A stretch of 64,000 bases of DNA from the NCBI GenBank assembly GCA_947500825.1, contig CANMTR010000003.1, forward strand, positions 1-64,000. The letters run 5' to 3'. This document shows, piece after piece, positions 34,926-41,711 of the stretch (position 1 is the stretch's first letter; every line of letters begins with the position of its first letter). Origin of the DNA: an uncultured Paracoccaceae bacterium (lineage in GTDB: Bacteria; Pseudomonadota; Alphaproteobacteria; Rhodobacterales; Rhodobacteraceae). The notes below the pieces were generated by a model. It saw only the letters and a program-made list of their open reading frames with translations. It was not told the origin of the DNA and did no database searches. The translations under genes were made by a program, and so were the position numbers.

Positions 34926-36359
34926 TCAGGCCGCGTGCTCCTCCAGCCACGCCGCGGCCGCCGACAGATCGGCGCGAAAGTCGCGCTCGGCGGCCGCGCG
35001 CGCGGCCTCGTTGGGCACCCGCAGCAGGTAGGAGGGGTGAAGCGTCAGCAGGACGGGCGTCCCGTCCCCGGTCTCCTCGAACGTCCCGCGCCGCTTCATG
35101 ATCCCCTGGCCGCGCCCGGTCAGGCTCGCCGCCGCCGTCGCCCCCATCGCCAGGATCAGGTCCGGGCGCACCAGCCGCCGCTCGGCGTCGAGCCACCAAC
35201 GGCAGGCCTGGACCTCGCCCGCGTCGGGCTTCTGGTGGATGCGGCGCTTGCCGCGGGGCACGAACTTGAAGTGCTTCACCGCGTTCGTCACGAAGGCGCG
35301 CGACCGGTCGAGTCCCGCCTCCTCGGCGAACCTGTCGAAGAGTTGCCCGGCCGGGCCGACGAAGGGCCGACCGGCCAGATCCTCCTGGTCGCCGGGTTGC
35401 TCTCCCACCACCATGAGGGGCGCGTCGCGGGGGCCTTCGCCCACCACCACCTGGGTCGCGTCGCGGTGCAGCGGGCAACGATCGCACCCTTCCGCCTCGC
35501 GGCGCAGGGCGTCCAGATCGTCGACGGGGGGCAGATCCTCGGTCATCCTGAGCCTTTCGCTGATTCGCGCAGCCCGTGCGGGCGCGAGGGTGGGGGCCGC
35601 GGCCTGCATGTCCCGGGCCCGGGCCTGGGCGCCGGCGATCAGTTCCGGGATCGCGGCGGCCTCGGGCAGGTTCTTCCAGTACTTCTTCGGCATCTCGGCC
35701 TGCATCGCCTTCACCTTGAGGCGCGCGGGGTTGAAGATGTTCCGGAAATACGTGGCCCAGAGCTCCTCGGTCGCATCCTCGGGCAGGGGCGGTCTCGATC
35801 CCCCGTCCGAGAAGGAGACGTCGCCGTCCGTGAAGGTGGCCGTCAGGTCGGGGGTCACGATCACCCAGTCCATGTCCCCGAAGCGGCGCATGAAGAACGG
35901 CGCGATCGGCTCCAGGATGTGGTGGTCCGGCTCGAACCAGGCGGCGAAGCGGCGCCGCGCGCCCGTGGCTTCAATCTCGCGGAACCTCAGGAACGCCGTC
36001 ATCTTGTGCCGGTCGCGGCGCACCGCCTTCTCCATCTCGCGCAGCCGCGCTAACCCCGGATCGCCCCGGTCCTGCATCAGGCCGGGCCGTCCCCGCAGAC
36101 GCCAAAGGAGCGCGTAGAGCCGGGCGAAGCGTTCGAGATCGGCGTGCCAGCATACCGTTTCCGACAGGGCGACGAAGCTGCGGGGCGCCCGCGCGGCCCC
36201 GGCCGCCGGACCCTCGGGCGGCCCGGCAAAGAGGTCGGGGGCCGCGTCGCCATACTGCCACACAACATCCTCGGGCGGCGTGCCCGCGCCCAGAAGGCCC
36301 CGCGCCGCGTCCCGCCACGCCGCCGCCGTTCCTTCCTTCGGAAGCGCCACGGTCCGCAT
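34926..36359 (-). CDS. DUF4130-UdgX fusion (uracil-DNA binding glycosylase-type protein)
   Basis: The 477 residues combine an N-terminal DUF4130 domain (about 1-245, with HKMTAFLRFRE and FEPDHHILEPIAPFF) and a C-terminal family 4-like uracil-DNA glycosylase (about 280-477). The latter has cluster cysteines starting CDRC, motif GEQPGDQEDLAGRPFVGPAG, HPSYLL, and the loop KRRIH (371-375). In UdgX of Mycobacterium the histidine of this loop bonds covalently to the sugar left after uracil removal, so the protein stays on the DNA. The start shares a base with the stop of the radical SAM gene (TGATG). Expression is probably SOS-controlled. Confidence 0.93.
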   Translation of the reverse strand: MRTVALPKEGTAAAWRDAARGLLGAGTPPEDVVWQYGDAAPDLFAGPPEGPAAGAARAPRSFVALSETVCWHADLERFARLYALLWRLRGRPGLMQDRGDPGLARLREMEKAVRRDRHKMTAFLRFREIEATGARRRFAAWFEPDHHILEPIAPFFMRRFGDMDWVIVTPDLTATFTDGDVSFSDGGSRPPLPEDATEELWATYFRNIFNPARLKVKAMQAEMPKKYWKNLPEAAAIPELIAGAQARARDMQAAAPTLAPARAARISERLRMTEDLPPVDDLDALRREAEGCDRCPLHRDATQVVVGEGPRDAPLMVVGEQPGDQEDLAGRPFVGPAGQLFDRFAEEAGLDRSRAFVTNAVKHFKFVPRGKRRIHQKPDAGEVQACRWWLDAERRLVRPDLILAMGATAAASLTGRGQGIMKRRGTFEETGDGTPVLLTLHPSYLLRVPNEAARAAAERDFRADLSAAAAWLEEHAA

Positions 36360-37594
36360 CAGAACAGCGACAACTGCTCGGGTGGCGGCGCGAACCGGGC
36401 CCGGAGATCGGCCGCGTCGGTCAGCGCGCCGGGCGACCAGCCCCCCAGCGTGACGAAGGCCCGCGCCTTCTTCATCGAGGCCCCCATCCGCGCCAGGTCC
36501 TCGTAGCGCAGGCTCCTGTGGCGCCGGGTCGTCAGGATCCGCCCCACCGTCTTGGTGCCGATCCCGGGCACCCGCAGGAGCATCTCGCGCGGGGCGCGGT
36601 TCACGTCGACGGGGAAGTGCTGGCGGTTGGCCAGCGCCCAGGCGAGCTTGGGATCGATCCCGAGATCGAGGTTGCCGTCCGGGGACGCGCCCGTGATTTC
36701 CGCTAGGTCGAAGCCGTAGAAGCGCAGCAGCCAGTCCGCCTGGTAGAGCCTGTGCTCGCGTTCGAGCGGCGGTCGGATCAGCGGCAGCTTCGCGGTGGCG
36801 TCGGGGATCGGCGAGAAGGCGGAGAAATAGACCCGCTTCAACCCGTAGGAGGAATAGAGCCGTGTGGACTGTCCCAGGATGGTCGCGTCGGTCGCGCCGT
36901 CCGCGCCGACGATCATCTGCGTCGATTGGCCCGCGGGGGCGAACCGCGCCGGGCGCCGCCCCGTGTGGCTGCGCTCCCCGGCGGCCTCTTTCCTCAGGCG
37001 CACGTCGGCCATGGCCTTGCGGATCGTGCGCGGGTCCTTCTCGGGCGCATAGGCGCGCACGCTCGCATCGGTGGGCAGCTCGACGTTGATCGACAGGCGG
37101 TCGGCGTGCAGGCCCGCCTGCTCGATCAGCCCCGGGTCGGCATCGGGAATGGTCTTGAGGTGGATGTAGCCGCGGAAGCGATGCTCCACCCGCAGCTTGC
37201 GCGCGATCTCGACCATCTCGCCCATGGTCTCGTCCGGCGAGCGCACGATCCCCGAGGACAGGAACAGCCCCTCGATGTAGTTGCGCCGGTAGAACTCCAG
37301 GGTCAGCGTCACGACCTCGTCGACGGTGAACCGCGCCCGCTTCACGTTGGAGCTGACCCGGTTCACGCAATAGGCGCAGTCGTAGATGCAGAAGTTCGTC
37401 AGCAGGATCTTCAGCAGGCTGATGCAGCGCCCGTCCGGGGCGTAGGCGTGGCAGATGCCCGACCCCTCCGTCGATCCCAGCCCGTCGCCCTTGCGCGACG
37501 ACCGCTTCGCCGTCCCCGACGAAGCGCAGGAGGCGTCGTACTTGGCGGCATCCGACAGGATCGCCAGCTTGTCCTGAAGGGTGGGGCGCGACAT
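36359..37594 (-). CDS. Putative DNA modification/repair radical SAM protein
   Basis: The 411-residue protein belongs to the rSAM_link_UDG type. The radical SAM cysteines are Cys69, Cys73 and Cys76 (CIYDCAYC), extra cysteines occur at 23, 48 and 57, and a helix-hairpin-helix near residues 325-355 (LLRVPGIGTKTVGRIL) suggests DNA binding. Its reaction is unknown. It is the first gene of a two-gene operon with the DUF4130-UdgX fusion, and a GTTC-N7-GTTC box lies immediately upstream of its start codon. The N-terminal MSRPTLQDKLAILSDAAKYDAS is characteristic of the family. Confidence 0.93.
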   Translation of the reverse strand: MSRPTLQDKLAILSDAAKYDASCASSGTAKRSSRKGDGLGSTEGSGICHAYAPDGRCISLLKILLTNFCIYDCAYCVNRVSSNVKRARFTVDEVVTLTLEFYRRNYIEGLFLSSGIVRSPDETMGEMVEIARKLRVEHRFRGYIHLKTIPDADPGLIEQAGLHADRLSINVELPTDASVRAYAPEKDPRTIRKAMADVRLRKEAAGERSHTGRRPARFAPAGQSTQMIVGADGATDATILGQSTRLYSSYGLKRVYFSAFSPIPDATAKLPLIRPPLEREHRLYQADWLLRFYGFDLAEITGASPDGNLDLGIDPKLAWALANRQHFPVDVNRAPREMLLRVPGIGTKTVGRILTTRRHRSLRYEDLARMGASMKKARAFVTLGGWSPGALTDAADLRARFAPPPEQLSLF

Positions 37595-37596
37595 GC

Positions 37597-37611
37597 GTTC
37601 ACCCTATGTTC
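37597..37611. promoter_or_regulatory. LexA-type SOS box GTTC-N7-GTTC
   Basis: GTTC at 37597-37600 and again at 37608-37611, separated by exactly 7 bases (ACCCTAT), match the LexA operator known from Rhodobacter and other alphaproteobacteria. It begins 2 bases upstream of the radical SAM start codon and 99 bases before the divergent RAM-domain gene. Confidence 0.75.
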
Positions 37612-37710: not shown

Positions 37711-37950
37711 ATGACGACCTGCGTCTTCGTCCAGATCCGCTGCCGCCCGGGAACCACCTACGCGGTCGCCGAGCGGATCGTGCTGAAGGAGATCCATTCC
37801 GAACTCTACTCGACCTCGGGCGAGTTCGACCTCCTGCTCAAGCTCTACATCCCCGAGGGCGCGGACGTGGGCAAGTACATCAACGACAACCTCCTCGATG
37901 TGGAGGGGATCGAGCGCAGCCTCACCACGCTCACGTTCAGCGCGTTCTGA
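37711..37950 (+). CDS. Stand-alone Lrp/AsnC ligand-binding (RAM) domain protein
   Basis: The 79-residue product is a lone RAM domain: TTCVFVQIRCRPGTTY, a central TSGEFDLLLKLYIP, and a C-terminal GIERSLTTLTFSAF. There is no DNA-binding domain. Such free RAM proteins assemble into ring oligomers that bind amino acids, and may bind to full-length Lrp proteins; no function is proven. AAGGAG precedes ATG 37711. It is divergent from the radical SAM gene and shares its 116-base upstream region with the LexA-type box. Confidence 0.88.
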   Translation: MTTCVFVQIRCRPGTTYAVAERIVLKEIHSELYSTSGEFDLLLKLYIPEGADVGKYINDNLLDVEGIERSLTTLTFSAF

Positions 37951-37977: not shown

Positions 37978-40584
37978 TCATGCCGCCCCGTCCTCCACCG
38001 GCGTCAGCGCGAGCGTCCGGCCGCCGAGGGCACGGAAGGCGCGCTGGCGGCAGGTCAGGACGATGATCTGCAGGTCGTCCGCCTGCCGGTGCAGCGCGTC
38101 GAACATGCGCTCGATGCGCTCGTCGTCGGTGAAGATCAGCGCATCGTCCAGGATCACGGGCGCATGGCGACCGGCCCTCGCCAGCATCCGCGCGAAGGCC
38201 AGCCGCACCAGAAGCGCGACCTGCTCGCCGGTGCCCCCCGACAGGATCTCGACGGGCTCCGGGGTGCCGTTCCGCACGAGCGCGGTGGGCAGGATCGTCT
38301 CCGCCTCCCAGGTCAGTTCGGCGTCGGGCCACAGGAGCGAAAGGAGCGGGCGCAGCTCCGCCGCTACGGGCTCGAAGTAGCGGTCCCGCGCCTCGCGCTT
38401 GGCGGCGTCGAGCGCCGCCTCCAGCCGTTGCAGGACCGCCACTTCGTGGGAGATCCGGGACAGGTCGGCCCGGGCGGCCTCCAGGTCCTGCTCCACCTCC
38501 GCCAGGCGATCCTCGACCCCGTCGCCCGTCCCGCGCGAGATCCGCTCGTCGAGCCGCGCGATCTCGGGCCGCAATCGCGCGATGGCCTCCCGGGCCTCGT
38601 GCTCGACGGATGTGGCCCGGGAGAGCGCGGCCTCGGCGGCCGCGAGGTCCGGCGCGGCGCGGGCCCGCTCGTCGAGCCGCGCGGCCGCCGAGTCGAGGGC
38701 CGCCGCCGCCTCCGTCGCCAGCCGCTCCAGCGTCTCCAGGTCGTGGCCGTCCCCCTGCGCCGCGGCCTCGGTGGCGCGCGCCCGCCGCTCCTCCGCCGCG
38801 CTCGCCTCCGCCTCCGCGCGGGCGGCCGCGATGCGGGCCTCGTCGTGGCGCCCTTGCGCCGTCGCATGGAGGCCGCGGGCGGCGACCCGCGCCTCCTCCG
38901 CCTCGGAAAGCGCGGCGGCGGCTGCCTCCGGGTCCGGGGCGTCGGCCGTCTCCTCCAGCACGGGGATCGCGGCAAGATCGGCGCGGAGCGGGTCGAGCCC
39001 GTCCGGCGCGAGGCTGCGGAAGACGGCCCGGGCCTCGCTCGCGCGTCGGATCGCATCGGCCCGCACCGCCCCGGCCTCCCGCGCCGCGGCCATGCCGTCG
39101 GCGCCGTGCTCGTCCAGCGCGGCGCCGAGCGCCCTCCCGGCGGCGGCGACGTCGGCGTCGTCCTGCGCGTCCCCCGAGGACGTGACCTCGACCGCGCCGA
39201 TCCCGTCGATATCCAGGCGCAGCCGGCGCGGGACGGGCACGATCTCGCCGTCCGAGAGCGCGCGCCCGTCGACCCGGAGCCCCGAACTCCGCCCTTCGGC
39301 GTAGTGCACGATCACTTGCGGCGCGGTCGCGTCGCGCGTCGCCTCGGCGGTCGCCAGCCGCGTGGCCAGGGCCTCCAGGTGCCGGAGCGCTGCATCGTCC
39401 GGCCCGGTCCCGGCCGCCGCACCCGCTTGCTCCATCTCGCGGCGCGCCGCCTCGGCCCCGGCGATCCGGCGCTCCAGCTCGGCGCGGCGGGCCGCCCCCT
39501 CCCGGGCGAGACGGTGGCGCTCCGCCGTCCGGCGCCTGGCCTCGGCGTCGCGCTCGGCGGCCTCGGCCGCCTCCAGGGTCGTGCGCGCCGTCTCGAGCGC
39601 CGTCGCGGCGGCATCGCGCTCTGCGGCCGCCGCGATGGCCTCGCGCCGGCTTTCGGCGGCCGCCCCGGTGGCCGCCTCGCGCTCGGCGACAAGGCCGCGG
39701 AGCGCGTCGCGCCGTTCCCCGGCACGCTCCGCGGCAAGCCGCGCCGCCTCGACCCGGCGCCGCTCCGCCGCCACCTCCTCGGCGTGCCGGCTGGCGGTCT
39801 CGTGGGCCTCCTGCGCCGCCTGCACCCGGGCCCGGCGCTCCTCGGCCGCCTCGGGGGCGTCCAGCTCCGCCAGGTCGCGGCGATGGCGGCGGCGCGCGTC
39901 CAGCGCCTCGCGCAGCTCGCGCGCCGTCTCCGACAGGCGGCCCCGGTCCGCCTCGAGCGCCTCCACCCGCACCTCCGCGGCCTTCCAGGGCCCGTTGGCC
40001 TTGGGGCGCCCCGTGGAGGTGGCAAAGGCCGCCAGCTCCGCGCGGCAGCGCGCGAGGGCCGCGTCCATCCGCCGCCCGCCGGTCATCGCCTCGACCTCGT
40101 GGCCCACGGAGGACATGAGGTCGCGCCGGGCCTCGAGCGCGGCACGGTCCTCCCTGGGGCCGGTGCCCTTCAGCCCGGTCATGCCCTGGCGCACCCACAG
40201 CAGGCTCGACGGGCCGTCGCCGCCCCCCAGCAGGCGCGCAACCTGCTCCTCCGCCGCGTCGGCCTGCGCGACGAGGCGGCCGTCGCGCTCGATCCACGCA
40301 TCCGGCTTCGAGAGCCATCGCTTCGTGATCTCGAAGCGGCCTTCCTCCGTCTCGACCTCGACGCGGATCTCGGGCGCCCCTCCCGAATGGGGCTGGAGCG
40401 CCTTGATGTCCCGGTCGCGGGACCCGTGAGCCTTGAAGAACAACGCCTGGATCGCGTCGAACAGGGTCGACTTGCCGATCTCGTTCGGCTCGCACAGGAC
40501 GTTCAGGCCGTCGCCGATACCCTCCACGCGGGTCGGCTGGGTGAACCTGCGCACGTTGGTCAGGGTGATCCCGCGGATCTTCAT
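37978..40584 (-). CDS. SMC/SbcC-like ATPase
   Basis: The 868-residue protein has a Walker A motif at the N-terminus (CEPNEIGKST, residues 31-40), more than 600 residues of charged coiled coil rich in Ala, Glu and Arg, and at the C-terminus the ABC signature LSGGTGEQVALL with Walker B VILDDALIF. This is the SbcC/Rad50/YhaN pattern: a head ATPase with a long arm, which opens DNA ends for a partner nuclease. No CxxC zinc hook is seen at the coil tip. The start overlaps the phosphoesterase gene by 4 bases, so the two form an SbcCD-like pair. Confidence 0.88.
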   Translation of the reverse strand: MKIRGITLTNVRRFTQPTRVEGIGDGLNVLCEPNEIGKSTLFDAIQALFFKAHGSRDRDIKALQPHSGGAPEIRVEVETEEGRFEITKRWLSKPDAWIERDGRLVAQADAAEEQVARLLGGGDGPSSLLWVRQGMTGLKGTGPREDRAALEARRDLMSSVGHEVEAMTGGRRMDAALARCRAELAAFATSTGRPKANGPWKAAEVRVEALEADRGRLSETARELREALDARRRHRRDLAELDAPEAAEERRARVQAAQEAHETASRHAEEVAAERRRVEAARLAAERAGERRDALRGLVAEREAATGAAAESRREAIAAAAERDAAATALETARTTLEAAEAAERDAEARRRTAERHRLAREGAARRAELERRIAGAEAARREMEQAGAAAGTGPDDAALRHLEALATRLATAEATRDATAPQVIVHYAEGRSSGLRVDGRALSDGEIVPVPRRLRLDIDGIGAVEVTSSGDAQDDADVAAAGRALGAALDEHGADGMAAAREAGAVRADAIRRASEARAVFRSLAPDGLDPLRADLAAIPVLEETADAPDPEAAAAALSEAEEARVAARGLHATAQGRHDEARIAAARAEAEASAAEERRARATEAAAQGDGHDLETLERLATEAAAALDSAAARLDERARAAPDLAAAEAALSRATSVEHEAREAIARLRPEIARLDERISRGTGDGVEDRLAEVEQDLEAARADLSRISHEVAVLQRLEAALDAAKREARDRYFEPVAAELRPLLSLLWPDAELTWEAETILPTALVRNGTPEPVEILSGGTGEQVALLVRLAFARMLARAGRHAPVILDDALIFTDDERIERMFDALHRQADDLQIIVLTCRQRAFRALGGRTLALTPVEDGAA

Positions 40585-41711
40585 TCCGCCGCCTCCCGCG
40601 CATAGCCATAGAGCCGGGCGAGGGCGTCGCCCGCGACATCGCGCTCCGCCGCCCCGAGGTCCGGGTTCTCCGCCTCAGTCAGAAGCGCCTCCGCGGCCAG
40701 TCGCACGGCCCCGCCGCGGTCGATCTCGTCGAGATCGGCCTTCTCGTAGTGGGTGCCCAGCCCGTGGGCATGAAGCTCGAAATGCGCGAAGTCCGGGCCG
40801 ACGCGCTCGGCGGCCCGGGCCAGGTCGGCCTGTTCGGGCAAGCCCGCCCAGCCGACCGCGCCGACCCTGATCAGGGTGTCACGCCGTCCCGTCCCGGGGA
40901 GCAGCGCCCCGAGGGCCGCGGCCGCGTCCTGCCGCGGCGACAGGGCCAGCTCGTCCGACCGCCACAGGAAGGTGCCCGTCTCAACCTCCTCGACCCGCGG
41001 CTCGGCCCCCGATCCGGGCACCGTCACGGCCAGGCAGACGCCCCGGCGCCCGTGCTTGAAGCGATCCTGCTCCGGCGTGCCGGAATAATGGACACGCGGG
41101 CTCACCGCCATCCGCCCGTGCCAGTCACCCAGGGCGAGGTAGTCGAGCCGCGCCGTGCGGTCCCTGTCGGGCGGAATGCTCTCCCCCGTCTCGTCGAAAT
41201 CGGTGATGCCGCCATGGGCGAGGCCGATCCGCAGGTTTCCCTCGCGGCTCTCCATCTCCGGCAGCGCCGCGCTGGGATCGCGGCCCGCCGAACGCCATTC
41301 GACCGGGCACGGAAGGAGCGTCGCCCCCGCCTCGAGCGCGACCGGCGCCTGGGTCGTCAGCGCGCGGACATTCGCCGGCCCGGCGATCACCGCGTCCCAC
41401 AGGGGCTCCGCCTCGCGCAGGTTGTCGTGGTTCCCCGGCAGGAGCCACCAGGTCACGTCCGCCTCGTCACCCATCGCCGCCAGGGCCTGTTGCAGGACGC
41501 TGCGGGAGGGGGTGGCGGTGTCGAACGTGTCGCCCGCCAGCAGGACATGGCGCGCCCCGTGGGCGCGGGCGGCGGCGGCGATGCGGCCGATGGCCCCATG
41601 GCGCGCCTCCATCAGCCGGCCGCGGATGTTGCCGTCCGCGGGCTGGGGGATGGAGCCGAAATGCCGCCCCAGATGCAGGTCCGAGGCATGGATGAAACGG
41701 AGCTCTGTCAT
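40581..41711 (-). CDS. SbcD/Mre11-like metallophosphoesterase
   Basis: The 376 residues show the calcineurin-like phosphoesterase motifs: HASDLHLGRH (Asp11, His13), LAGDTFDT, LLPGNHDN, and the GDWHGR/GLAHGG histidine loops. The family cuts DNA ends and hairpins together with an ATPase partner. That partner is the overlapping gene downstream. Both differ in length and sequence from canonical SbcD/SbcC, being nearer to the YhaO/YhaN subgroup. ATG 41711 is preceded by GGAGG on the minus strand. Confidence 0.88.
   Translation of the reverse strand: MTELRFIHASDLHLGRHFGSIPQPADGNIRGRLMEARHGAIGRIAAAARAHGARHVLLAGDTFDTATPSRSVLQQALAAMGDEADVTWWLLPGNHDNLREAEPLWDAVIAGPANVRALTTQAPVALEAGATLLPCPVEWRSAGRDPSAALPEMESREGNLRIGLAHGGITDFDETGESIPPDRDRTARLDYLALGDWHGRMAVSPRVHYSGTPEQDRFKHGRRGVCLAVTVPGSGAEPRVEEVETGTFLWRSDELALSPRQDAAAALGALLPGTGRRDTLIRVGAVGWAGLPEQADLARAAERVGPDFAHFELHAHGLGTHYEKADLDEIDRGGAVRLAAEALLTEAENPDLGAAERDVAGDALARLYGYAREAAE

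Follow-up and report, generated by a model that had tools for sequence, protein, structure and literature searches.

What does the radical S-adenosylmethionine (SAM) operon at positions 34,926 to 37,611 of this stretch do, and does its work center on the UdgX domain, a member of the uracil-DNA glycosylase (UDG) families, that its second gene carries? The window, by which we mean the whole stretch of 64,000 nucleotides analyzed (positions 1 to 64,000 of contig CANMTR010000003.1, assembly GCA_947500825.1, from an uncultured Paracoccaceae bacterium), holds a gene for a radical SAM protein followed by a gene in which a DUF4130 domain is fused to UdgX. A sequence-only reading of this locus had proposed that UdgX could trap uracil or abasic lesions, with the radical SAM enzyme and DUF4130 repairing the lesion or releasing the adduct. 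The distribution of these genes among relatives suggests that the working core is the radical SAM protein plus DUF4130, and that UdgX is an add-on. The explanation that we judge best overall, to which we give about an even chance, is that of an SOS-induced, clamp-docked radical SAM-DUF4130 pair that processes lesions and into which UdgX plugs. The following features of the operon bear on this question.

36359..37594, minus strand: radical SAM protein, TIGR03916 (rSAM_link_UDG), 411 amino acids (NCBIfam/Pfam matches, AlphaFold2 (AF2) model, barrel matches)
37424..37528, minus strand: stretch with Cys23, Cys48 and Cys57, upstream of the radical SAM motif (invariant in 43/43)
37367..37390, minus strand: radical SAM [4Fe-4S] motif CIYDCAYC, residues 69-76 (sequence, alignment)
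36521..36604, minus strand: helix-hairpin-helix (HhH), about residues 331-358 (weak RuvA HhH matches; blocks with a predicted local distance difference test score, pLDDT, of 92-96)
36362..36376, minus strand: C-terminal QLSLF, residues 407-411, putative motif for binding the beta sliding clamp (tail of low model confidence; consensus from PMC11139829)
37597..37611, minus strand: predicted LexA (SOS) box GAACATAGGGTGAAC, GAAC-N7-GAAC, just before the radical SAM ATG (alphaproteobacterial pattern)
36357..36361, minus strand: TGATG, where the radical SAM stop overlaps the fusion start
34926..36359, minus strand: DUF4130-UdgX fusion protein, 477 amino acids (NCBIfam/Pfam matches)
35655..36359, minus strand: DUF4130/TIGR03915 domain, residues 1-235 (NCBIfam/Pfam matches, AF2 model)
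34974..35534, minus strand: UdgX domain, about residues 276-462 (NCBIfam/Pfam matches, alignment with solved UdgX)
35235..35252, minus strand: R-loop GKRRIH with His375 (alignment with solved UdgX)

Gene content was compared in a phylum sample of 200 genomes and a class sample of 385 genomes, which have 10 radical SAM genomes in common and together hold 46 distinct ones, 45 of them with DUF4130. Only matches above curated cut-offs were counted, which dropped below-cut-off matches in 6 of 37 radical SAM genomes and 123 of 152 UdgX genomes of the phylum sample, and in 16 of 41 radical SAM genomes of the class sample. The control genome of Caulobacter crescentus matches all three families. Loci were also compared one by one. 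From 590 relatives, the best 80 were taken as the named loci, and counts over them are not independent because all are Alphaproteobacteria that are 70-91% identical. Phyla other than Pseudomonadota are represented by plasmid-collection records.

DUF4130 is present in 31 of 31 radical SAM genomes of the phylum sample, where the one extra DUF4130 match (G071) is a fragment with a stop. In the class sample, 25 genomes carry the radical SAM gene, 25 carry DUF4130 and 24 carry both, the exceptions being fragments: a partial radical SAM gene in a draft genome (G237), and DUF4130 with only the C-terminal part of a radical SAM gene (G367). Among the named loci, DUF4130 adjoins the radical SAM gene in 80 of 80. 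Fisher tests for the co-occurrence of radical SAM with DUF4130 give 1e-35 and 7e-36 (phylum and class), far stronger than the 3e-18 and 4e-18 obtained for radical SAM with UdgX, and UdgX is therefore best described as associated with the radical SAM gene but separable from it.

This separability is evident in both directions. UdgX is missing over cut-off in 8 of the 31 phylum radical SAM genomes, and 7 of the 24 pair-bearing class genomes have none beside the pair, although two of these seven have UdgX on another contig. Over both samples, 14 of the 45 genomes with the pair show no UdgX next to it; in one more, G194, the contig stops short of the UDG part. The sequence-only reading had called for a survey of gene neighbors; in our survey, radical SAM and DUF4130 stay together, and it is UdgX that comes and goes. 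Conversely, among genomes with UdgX, 6 of 29 in the phylum sample and 15 of 34 in the class sample have no radical SAM protein. The UDG domain is also absent from 9 of the 79 named loci that can be read (L190 is cut off). Nine UDG-less proteins (L034, L036, L136-L138, L140, L148, L155 and L174) end in what appears to be the pre-UDG linker of the fused form. Plasmid records of Pusillibacter, Bacteroides, Parabacteroides, Spirosoma and Lachnospira carry the pair annotated without a UDG, as does an Acinetobacter contig filed as phage.

A quick tree built from 117 radical SAM proteins requires 8 changes of the UDG label, at least 7 of them forced by well-supported branches, compared with 21.3 changes in shuffles. 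For this tree, L202 and L203 were excluded and L046 and L190, whose ends are unseen, were scored as UDG-bearing; it carries a long-branch warning, with L032, L201, L206, L211 and L213 among the branches flagged. Stand-alone UdgX keeps its loop His in 19 of 19 loci checked, which include 13 of the 15 class genomes that lack the radical SAM protein. At one further locus (L040/L243, genome G155), the UDG match is limited to profile positions 99-231 and its reading frame differs from that of DUF4130, and the fusion looks frame-shifted or split.

The predicted SOS box follows the same division. Within the window the box by itself means little, because 2 such boxes are seen vs 1.3 expected; its weight comes from the excess across the genome (91 boxes vs 31 for the reversed pattern) and from its conserved position before the radical SAM ATG in relatives, and on these grounds the ‘SOS-linked’ label of the sequence-only reading is borne out. 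In 77 of the 80 named loci, an exact GAAC/GTTC-N7 box is found no further than 150 nucleotides from where the radical SAM gene starts; the three misses (L166, L191 and L193) have, by eye, a box with one changed base. Among phylum-sample loci it is present in 22 of 30, that is, in 22 of 22 class loci, the eight misses being the eight loci outside the class. The reversed pattern is found in 1/80 and 1/30 of these loci, and regions further upstream yield 0/79 and 0/30. Six of the eight loci outside the class carry a CTGT-N8-ACAG box (L050 upon a wider look), five of these six being without UDG, and this pattern occurs 0 times in the upstream and gene-body controls. Firmicute-type boxes were found in 1 of 3 Bacillota loci. 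The scan covers Alphaproteobacteria, other Pseudomonadota, Bacillota and further listed loci, with Bacteroidota loci left out.

Stand-alone UdgX genes are without a box within 350 nucleotides at 18 of 19 loci. The sole locus with one, L072 (G071), has the box and the end of DUF4130 directly before UdgX and is an apparent deletion scar: the loss took away the radical SAM gene along with the larger part of DUF4130, and UdgX came to lie behind the old box. Two stand-alone UdgX loci of the same genus (L068 and L070) keep the DUF4130 end, and there the box is absent. UdgX thus outlasts loss of the pair. As judged from these sequences, it is the radical SAM gene that the SOS box accompanies, also where UdgX is absent, and not UdgX. 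Nine further boxes in the window's own genome, picked by eye among the 91 for AT-rich spacers, were also inspected: three lie before DnaE2, UmuD and an ImuB-like gene, and the remainder showed no SOS gene in the frames scanned (all except L219). LexA binding and damage induction at the box are predictions, whereas the pairing and the box themselves are well supported and, in our judgment, very probably correct features of this system.

The radical SAM protein also appears to carry an address. Passages of PMC11139829 give the beta-clamp consensus as QL(S/D)LF, located in some proteins in C-terminal tails, and describe five- and six-residue forms. Within the last nine residues, a strict pattern, Q[LM][SDTNA]L[FL], is found in 88 of 119 radical SAM proteins, compared with a shuffled mean of 0.16. 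A looser five-residue form occurs in 108 of 119 tails (shuffled mean 1.1), and a five- or six-residue form in 116 of 119 (shuffled mean 2.05, on 117 proteins). The window's own genome is L039 in this set and in the 30- and 43-sequence sets, and L202 and L206 have an identical tail. QLSLF reaches beyond Alphaproteobacteria to Spirosoma, Pusillibacter and Lachnospira, with most rows of the tail set alphaproteobacterial, and six-residue forms are seen in Bacteroides, Parabacteroides and Acinetobacter.

Gln407 is kept in 41 of 43 aligned sequences, and no residue from 381 to 406 reaches 90%. An isolated conserved glutamine in a tail of low model confidence is as expected of a linear motif. It seems likely from this pattern that the radical SAM protein docks on the clamp via QLSLF. 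No paper linking a clamp-binding motif with radical SAM was found in our literature search. A clamp motif was also sought in the fusion protein, where the result (4/70) was not used. Only one of the 19 stand-alone UdgX loci (L235) has such a motif: QLSLGF, a six-residue clamp form, ahead of the UDG domain in its reading frame.

A further pointer to replication comes from the neighborhood of dnaE2: of the 25 phylum genomes with both this gene and the radical SAM gene, six (G035, G111, G159, G087, G131 and G155) have the two no more than 2.5 kb apart. Three have dnaE2 downstream on the same strand, after the UdgX part (G087, G131 and G155), and three have it divergent. In G035, imuA-imuB-dnaE2 is divergent from the radical SAM operon with a single LexA box between them (the imuA match, at 35.5 bits, is below the family cut-off), and the spacing of radical SAM and dnaE2 in G111 and G159 is as in G035. 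The imuB gene is near in 3 of 4 loci inspected (G035, G087 and G131): in G087 and G131, ImuB or its C-terminal part is encoded 1-3 kb upstream of the operon, and in G155 imuB was not found within the 10.5 kb examined. In some bacteria, the pair is apparently part of one operon with the gene for the mutagenic DnaE2 polymerase. Co-occurrence with DnaE2 is strong over the phylum sample, where 25 of 31 genomes with the radical SAM protein have DnaE2 vs 41 of 169 without (p 4e-9). However, we use adjacency alone as evidence, because within the class this co-occurrence is not significant (22/23 vs 21/28, p 0.06). Next to the operon of G155 there is, in addition, a divergent PA0069-family radical SAM gene (L243:979-2124, minus strand, 448 bits), and the sole LexA box of L243, at 2098, is near the starts of both this gene and the TIGR03916 operon.

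The anatomy on which these arguments rest is largely that given by the sequence-only reading. It had described a radical SAM gene with CIYDCAYC and a C-terminal HhH, and the protein indeed matches TIGR03916 at 570 bits (E 3.3e-171; curated cut-off 343.5 bits) and Pfam Radical_SAM at 34.8 bits, with the HhH recognized through weak RuvA HhH matches (best E 0.012). The barrel of its AF2 model matches radical SAM enzymes generally, including AprD4, MiaB, HydE and BioB among the 50 fold matches listed of 1386. Alignments A1 and A2 take 71 and 67 of the 80 named loci, respectively, plus the window, redundant and partial rows being excluded. The alignment of 43 radical SAM sequences has six cysteines that are the same in all 43, namely the motif residues 69, 73 and 76 and also Cys23, Cys48 and Cys57. 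Auxiliary clusters of other radical SAM enzymes involve extra cysteines near the motif, and Cys23/48/57 could form a possible auxiliary Fe-S site, which we offer as a lead only. An argument for this site from structure was rejected, the model (pLDDT 70) being too poor at residues 16-85.

The reading of the second gene as a DUF4130-UdgX fusion, coupled by TGATG and bearing KRRIH with His375, was likewise confirmed by family matches and by alignment with UdgX. The stop/start overlap recurs in 55 of 80 named loci and 19 of 30 phylum-sample relatives. TIGR03915 and DUF4130 cover residues 9-234, at 200 bits (cut-off 112.25) and 136 bits (cut-off 27), respectively, and the AF2 model of this domain is confident (pLDDT 84.8). 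Its only invariant residues across 43 sequences are Pro144, Arg159 and Ile167. A search of the PDB by sequence gave no convincing relative (best E 0.63), and a DHH-phosphoesterase fold, suggested by repeated but weak matches (E 0.05 and weaker), was not used. No assigned reaction for the radical SAM protein or DUF4130 was found in our literature searches.

TIGR03914, ‘UdgX family uracil-DNA binding protein’, matches residues 236-467 above its curated cut-off. The best solved relatives of the UDG part are UdgX structures (E 7e-50 and weaker), in an alignment that spans GEQPG and KRRIH and sets His375 opposite the loop His of the solved chains. This loop His is the cross-linking residue of UdgX according to the portion of PMC10359453 that also defines the UdgX motifs. 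The signature is intact in the fusion (motif A GEQPG, R-loop with His, motif B HPS), and a covalent His375-DNA bond on uracil DNA is a predicted UdgX-type trait. Of 102 aligned UDG sequences, 101 retain the loop His and 97 retain GEQPG; the sole exception for the His is a below-cut-off UDG without the loop (L091), and in L089 the loop is altered.

From the observed anatomy and SOS box, the nearly invariable pairing, the optional presence of UdgX, the conservation of the tail motif and, in some genomes, dnaE2 adjacency, we infer clamp binding, damage induction, a substrate, a reaction and a role for DUF4130 as follows. SOS induction would bring up the radical SAM protein and DUF4130 together, and the radical SAM protein would dock on the beta sliding clamp through its C-terminal QLSLF while its HhH holds DNA. 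A 5′-deoxyadenosyl radical, perhaps aided by an auxiliary cluster on Cys23/48/57, would then reverse or modify a fork-blocking base lesion. DUF4130 would be the obligatory partner that provides lesion recognition or a second catalytic step, and the pair would act at the stalled forks that the SOS translesion polymerases also serve. UdgX would be an optional attachment, found here mostly in alphaproteobacterial members, that captures uracil or abasic sites in the same DNA. We regard direct processing of lesions at stalled forks as plausible, the case for it being evenly poised. We put forward only tentatively, and with some doubt, the more specific proposal that the pair travels on the beta clamp to stalled forks, where it would undo the lesion by radical chemistry, as a non-mutagenic alternative to DnaE2, with UdgX gained or lost repeatedly.

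Three other explanations deserve to be weighed against this proposal. The sequence-only reading held that UdgX covalently traps uracil or abasic sites and that the radical SAM protein and DUF4130 repair the lesion or free UdgX from the DNA. Physical fusion within one operon, the near-complete retention of the loop His and GEQPG (101 and 97 of 102) and the significant Fisher association of UdgX with radical SAM (3e-18 and 4e-18) are all consistent with such a role. Against it, the pair has no UdgX beside it in 14 of 45 genomes; the radical SAM protein is missing from 15 of 34 UdgX genomes of the class sample and 6 of 29 of the phylum sample, with the UdgX His intact at all 19 stand-alone loci checked; the UDG label, moreover, changes 8 times, and at least 7, on the radical SAM tree, and the SOS box tracks the radical SAM gene. 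We therefore do not favor this explanation, which strikes us as improbable, and a part in adduct handling where the fusion exists is at most a secondary role. An SplB-type enzyme, that is, a relative of spore photoproduct lyase (SPL) that reverses dimers with the aid of helper domains, is improbable to a similar degree. No SPL family appears among the NCBIfam/Pfam matches at E 1e-3, in a library that we presume to contain an SPL model, and no SPL chain is present in the PDB sequence matches or among the 50 fold matches listed of 1386. What speaks for it is the presence of a radical SAM enzyme behind an SOS box, together with a mention, in a portion of PMC3765255, of SplB-like radical SAM photolyases adjoining DUF4130.

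The remaining alternative makes the pair an accessory of SOS mutagenesis: the clamp-bound radical SAM protein would modify a template base (e.g. thymine) or the polymerase complex to permit bypass, rather than restore the base. The tail motif, the dnaE2 adjacency in six genomes and the nearby imuB in 3 of 4 loci inspected are all compatible with this role, and a legend in PMC3765255 names DUF4130 a predicted mutagenesis-related enzyme and mentions the modification of thymines. On the other hand, 6 of the 31 phylum genomes with the pair are without DnaE2, and fusion to a glycosylase-type domain suits repair at least equally. We consider this alternative unlikely, if less so than the two preceding ones.

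Several observations weigh against the clamp-docked lesion-processing pair itself, in addition to the non-independence of the named-locus counts and the class-level DnaE2 result given above. The mechanism, with regard to substrate and reaction, is built on sequence and genome context. Of the 119 tails, 28 match looser forms only, three (L047, L050 and L203) match no form, and three others (L056, L059 and L060) read QMALW; in one motif covered in PMC11139829, a Trp at the last position weakened binding. None of the searched box types was found at L032, L047, L201, L202, L203 and L212. L203, from a Gemmatirosa kalamazoonensis plasmid and 39% identical over the radical SAM part, shows neither a DUF4130 gene, over the 9 kb searched, nor a clamp motif in its tail, and as a distant radical SAM relative its membership in the family is putative. 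The dnaE2 adjacency is confined to two families (f6 and f8), and among the 80 named loci imuB is within 4 kb in 1 and dnaE2 in 0. The DUF4130 model has no PDB fold match at E 0.001 (best E 0.046), and structure gives the proposed auxiliary cluster no support because the radical SAM model is poor in that region.

Other roles and wider contexts were also considered. A part in anti-phage defense was rejected, with 0 PADLOC families matched, and phage origin is unsupported: 10 phage-collection records match the radical SAM query, comprising two 240-kb ‘Acinetobacter phage MD-2021a’ contigs and eight unannotated fecal ‘Bacteriophage sp.’ records. One of these 240-kb contigs, the source of L206, carries glyS, glyQ and aroE besides the radical SAM-DUF4130 pair and looks like a bacterial chromosome. 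The fusion-protein query matches 47 phage records, none covering 80%, and in 25 rows listed it is the UDG part alone that matches. One viral contig (L205) is present among the radical SAM relatives. A larger conserved cluster with six window neighbors was dismissed, as these neighbors recur in no more than one of the 80 loci, L121, which is 91% identical. Upstream of the operon, the window encodes a 78-amino acid Lrp/AsnC ligand-binding domain protein divergent from the radical SAM gene (37711-37950, plus strand) and, at 37978-41711 on the minus strand, an 868-amino acid frame with weak SMC/Rad50-type ATPase matches that overlaps an SbcD-like phosphoesterase gene; the SMC/Rad50-type and SbcD-like genes are not beside the operon in 80 relatives. 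The plasmid collection holds 158 records with the radical SAM gene, 58 of them from Phaeobacter, and one Phaeobacter plasmid record has genes for an ATP-dependent DNA ligase and a ligase-associated exonuclease about 4-5 kb from it. A gene that carries the annotation used for this system is upregulated in desiccated Acinetobacter, according to a passage in PMC13130816.

The families, their linkage and their SOS control are already present in NCBIfam and in print, and the window holds an ordinary alphaproteobacterial member. All three models of the TIGR03916/TIGR03915/TIGR03914 set (rSAM_link_UDG, SAM_7_link_chp and UDG_fam_dom) are matched far above their cut-offs, and the genomic linkage cited by the sequence-only reading is indeed found in the NCBIfam model names and in portions of PMC3765255 and PMC8565304. 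These names tie radical SAM to UDG, whereas in our samples it is radical SAM with DUF4130 that is near-obligatory and UdgX that is optional. A section of PMC8565304 describes a two-gene COG1573-COG4277 operon of Bacteroidetes under predicted LexA-type regulation, reads it as UDG-based excision repair, and notes earlier reports of SOS regulation of a UDG-based system in Verrucomicrobia and Alphaproteobacteria. That operon may well be the same system. In three annotated Bacteroidota records, the second gene encodes a TIGR03915 protein of about 255 amino acids, too short to hold a UDG domain too, and the published UDG reading may therefore rest on the fused family. No paper pairing UdgX with radical SAM was found in our literature search.

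Separating the core pair from UdgX corrects the UDG-centered reading; what is left is a radical SAM-DUF4130 pair that several bacterial groups have behind SOS boxes. A concrete site, the stalled fork, is suggested by the clamp motif and by the linkage to dnaE2, which make the function testable; if the proposal is true, a damage-induced radical enzyme would be at work on the sliding clamp. UdgX of Mycobacterium smegmatis (6AJO, 6AIL and 8IIE) has the same GEQPG, KRRIH and position of the His nucleophile, but in the window the domain follows DUF4130 in one fusion protein and, together with a radical SAM gene, is preceded by an SOS box. SplB, also known as spore photoproduct lyase, is a radical SAM enzyme that acts on DNA. 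It differs from the protein described here, which has no match to its family, has none of its chains among the listed fold matches, and carries an HhH and a clamp-motif tail. Another likeness is to the ImuA-ImuB-DnaE2 mutasome, with which the pair shares LexA boxes and, in two families, adjacency; Pol IV and Pol V, moreover, have a clamp motif of the kind seen in the radical SAM tail, as stated in a part of PMC11139829. Unlike the mutasome, the pair is without a polymerase domain and would bring radical chemistry instead.

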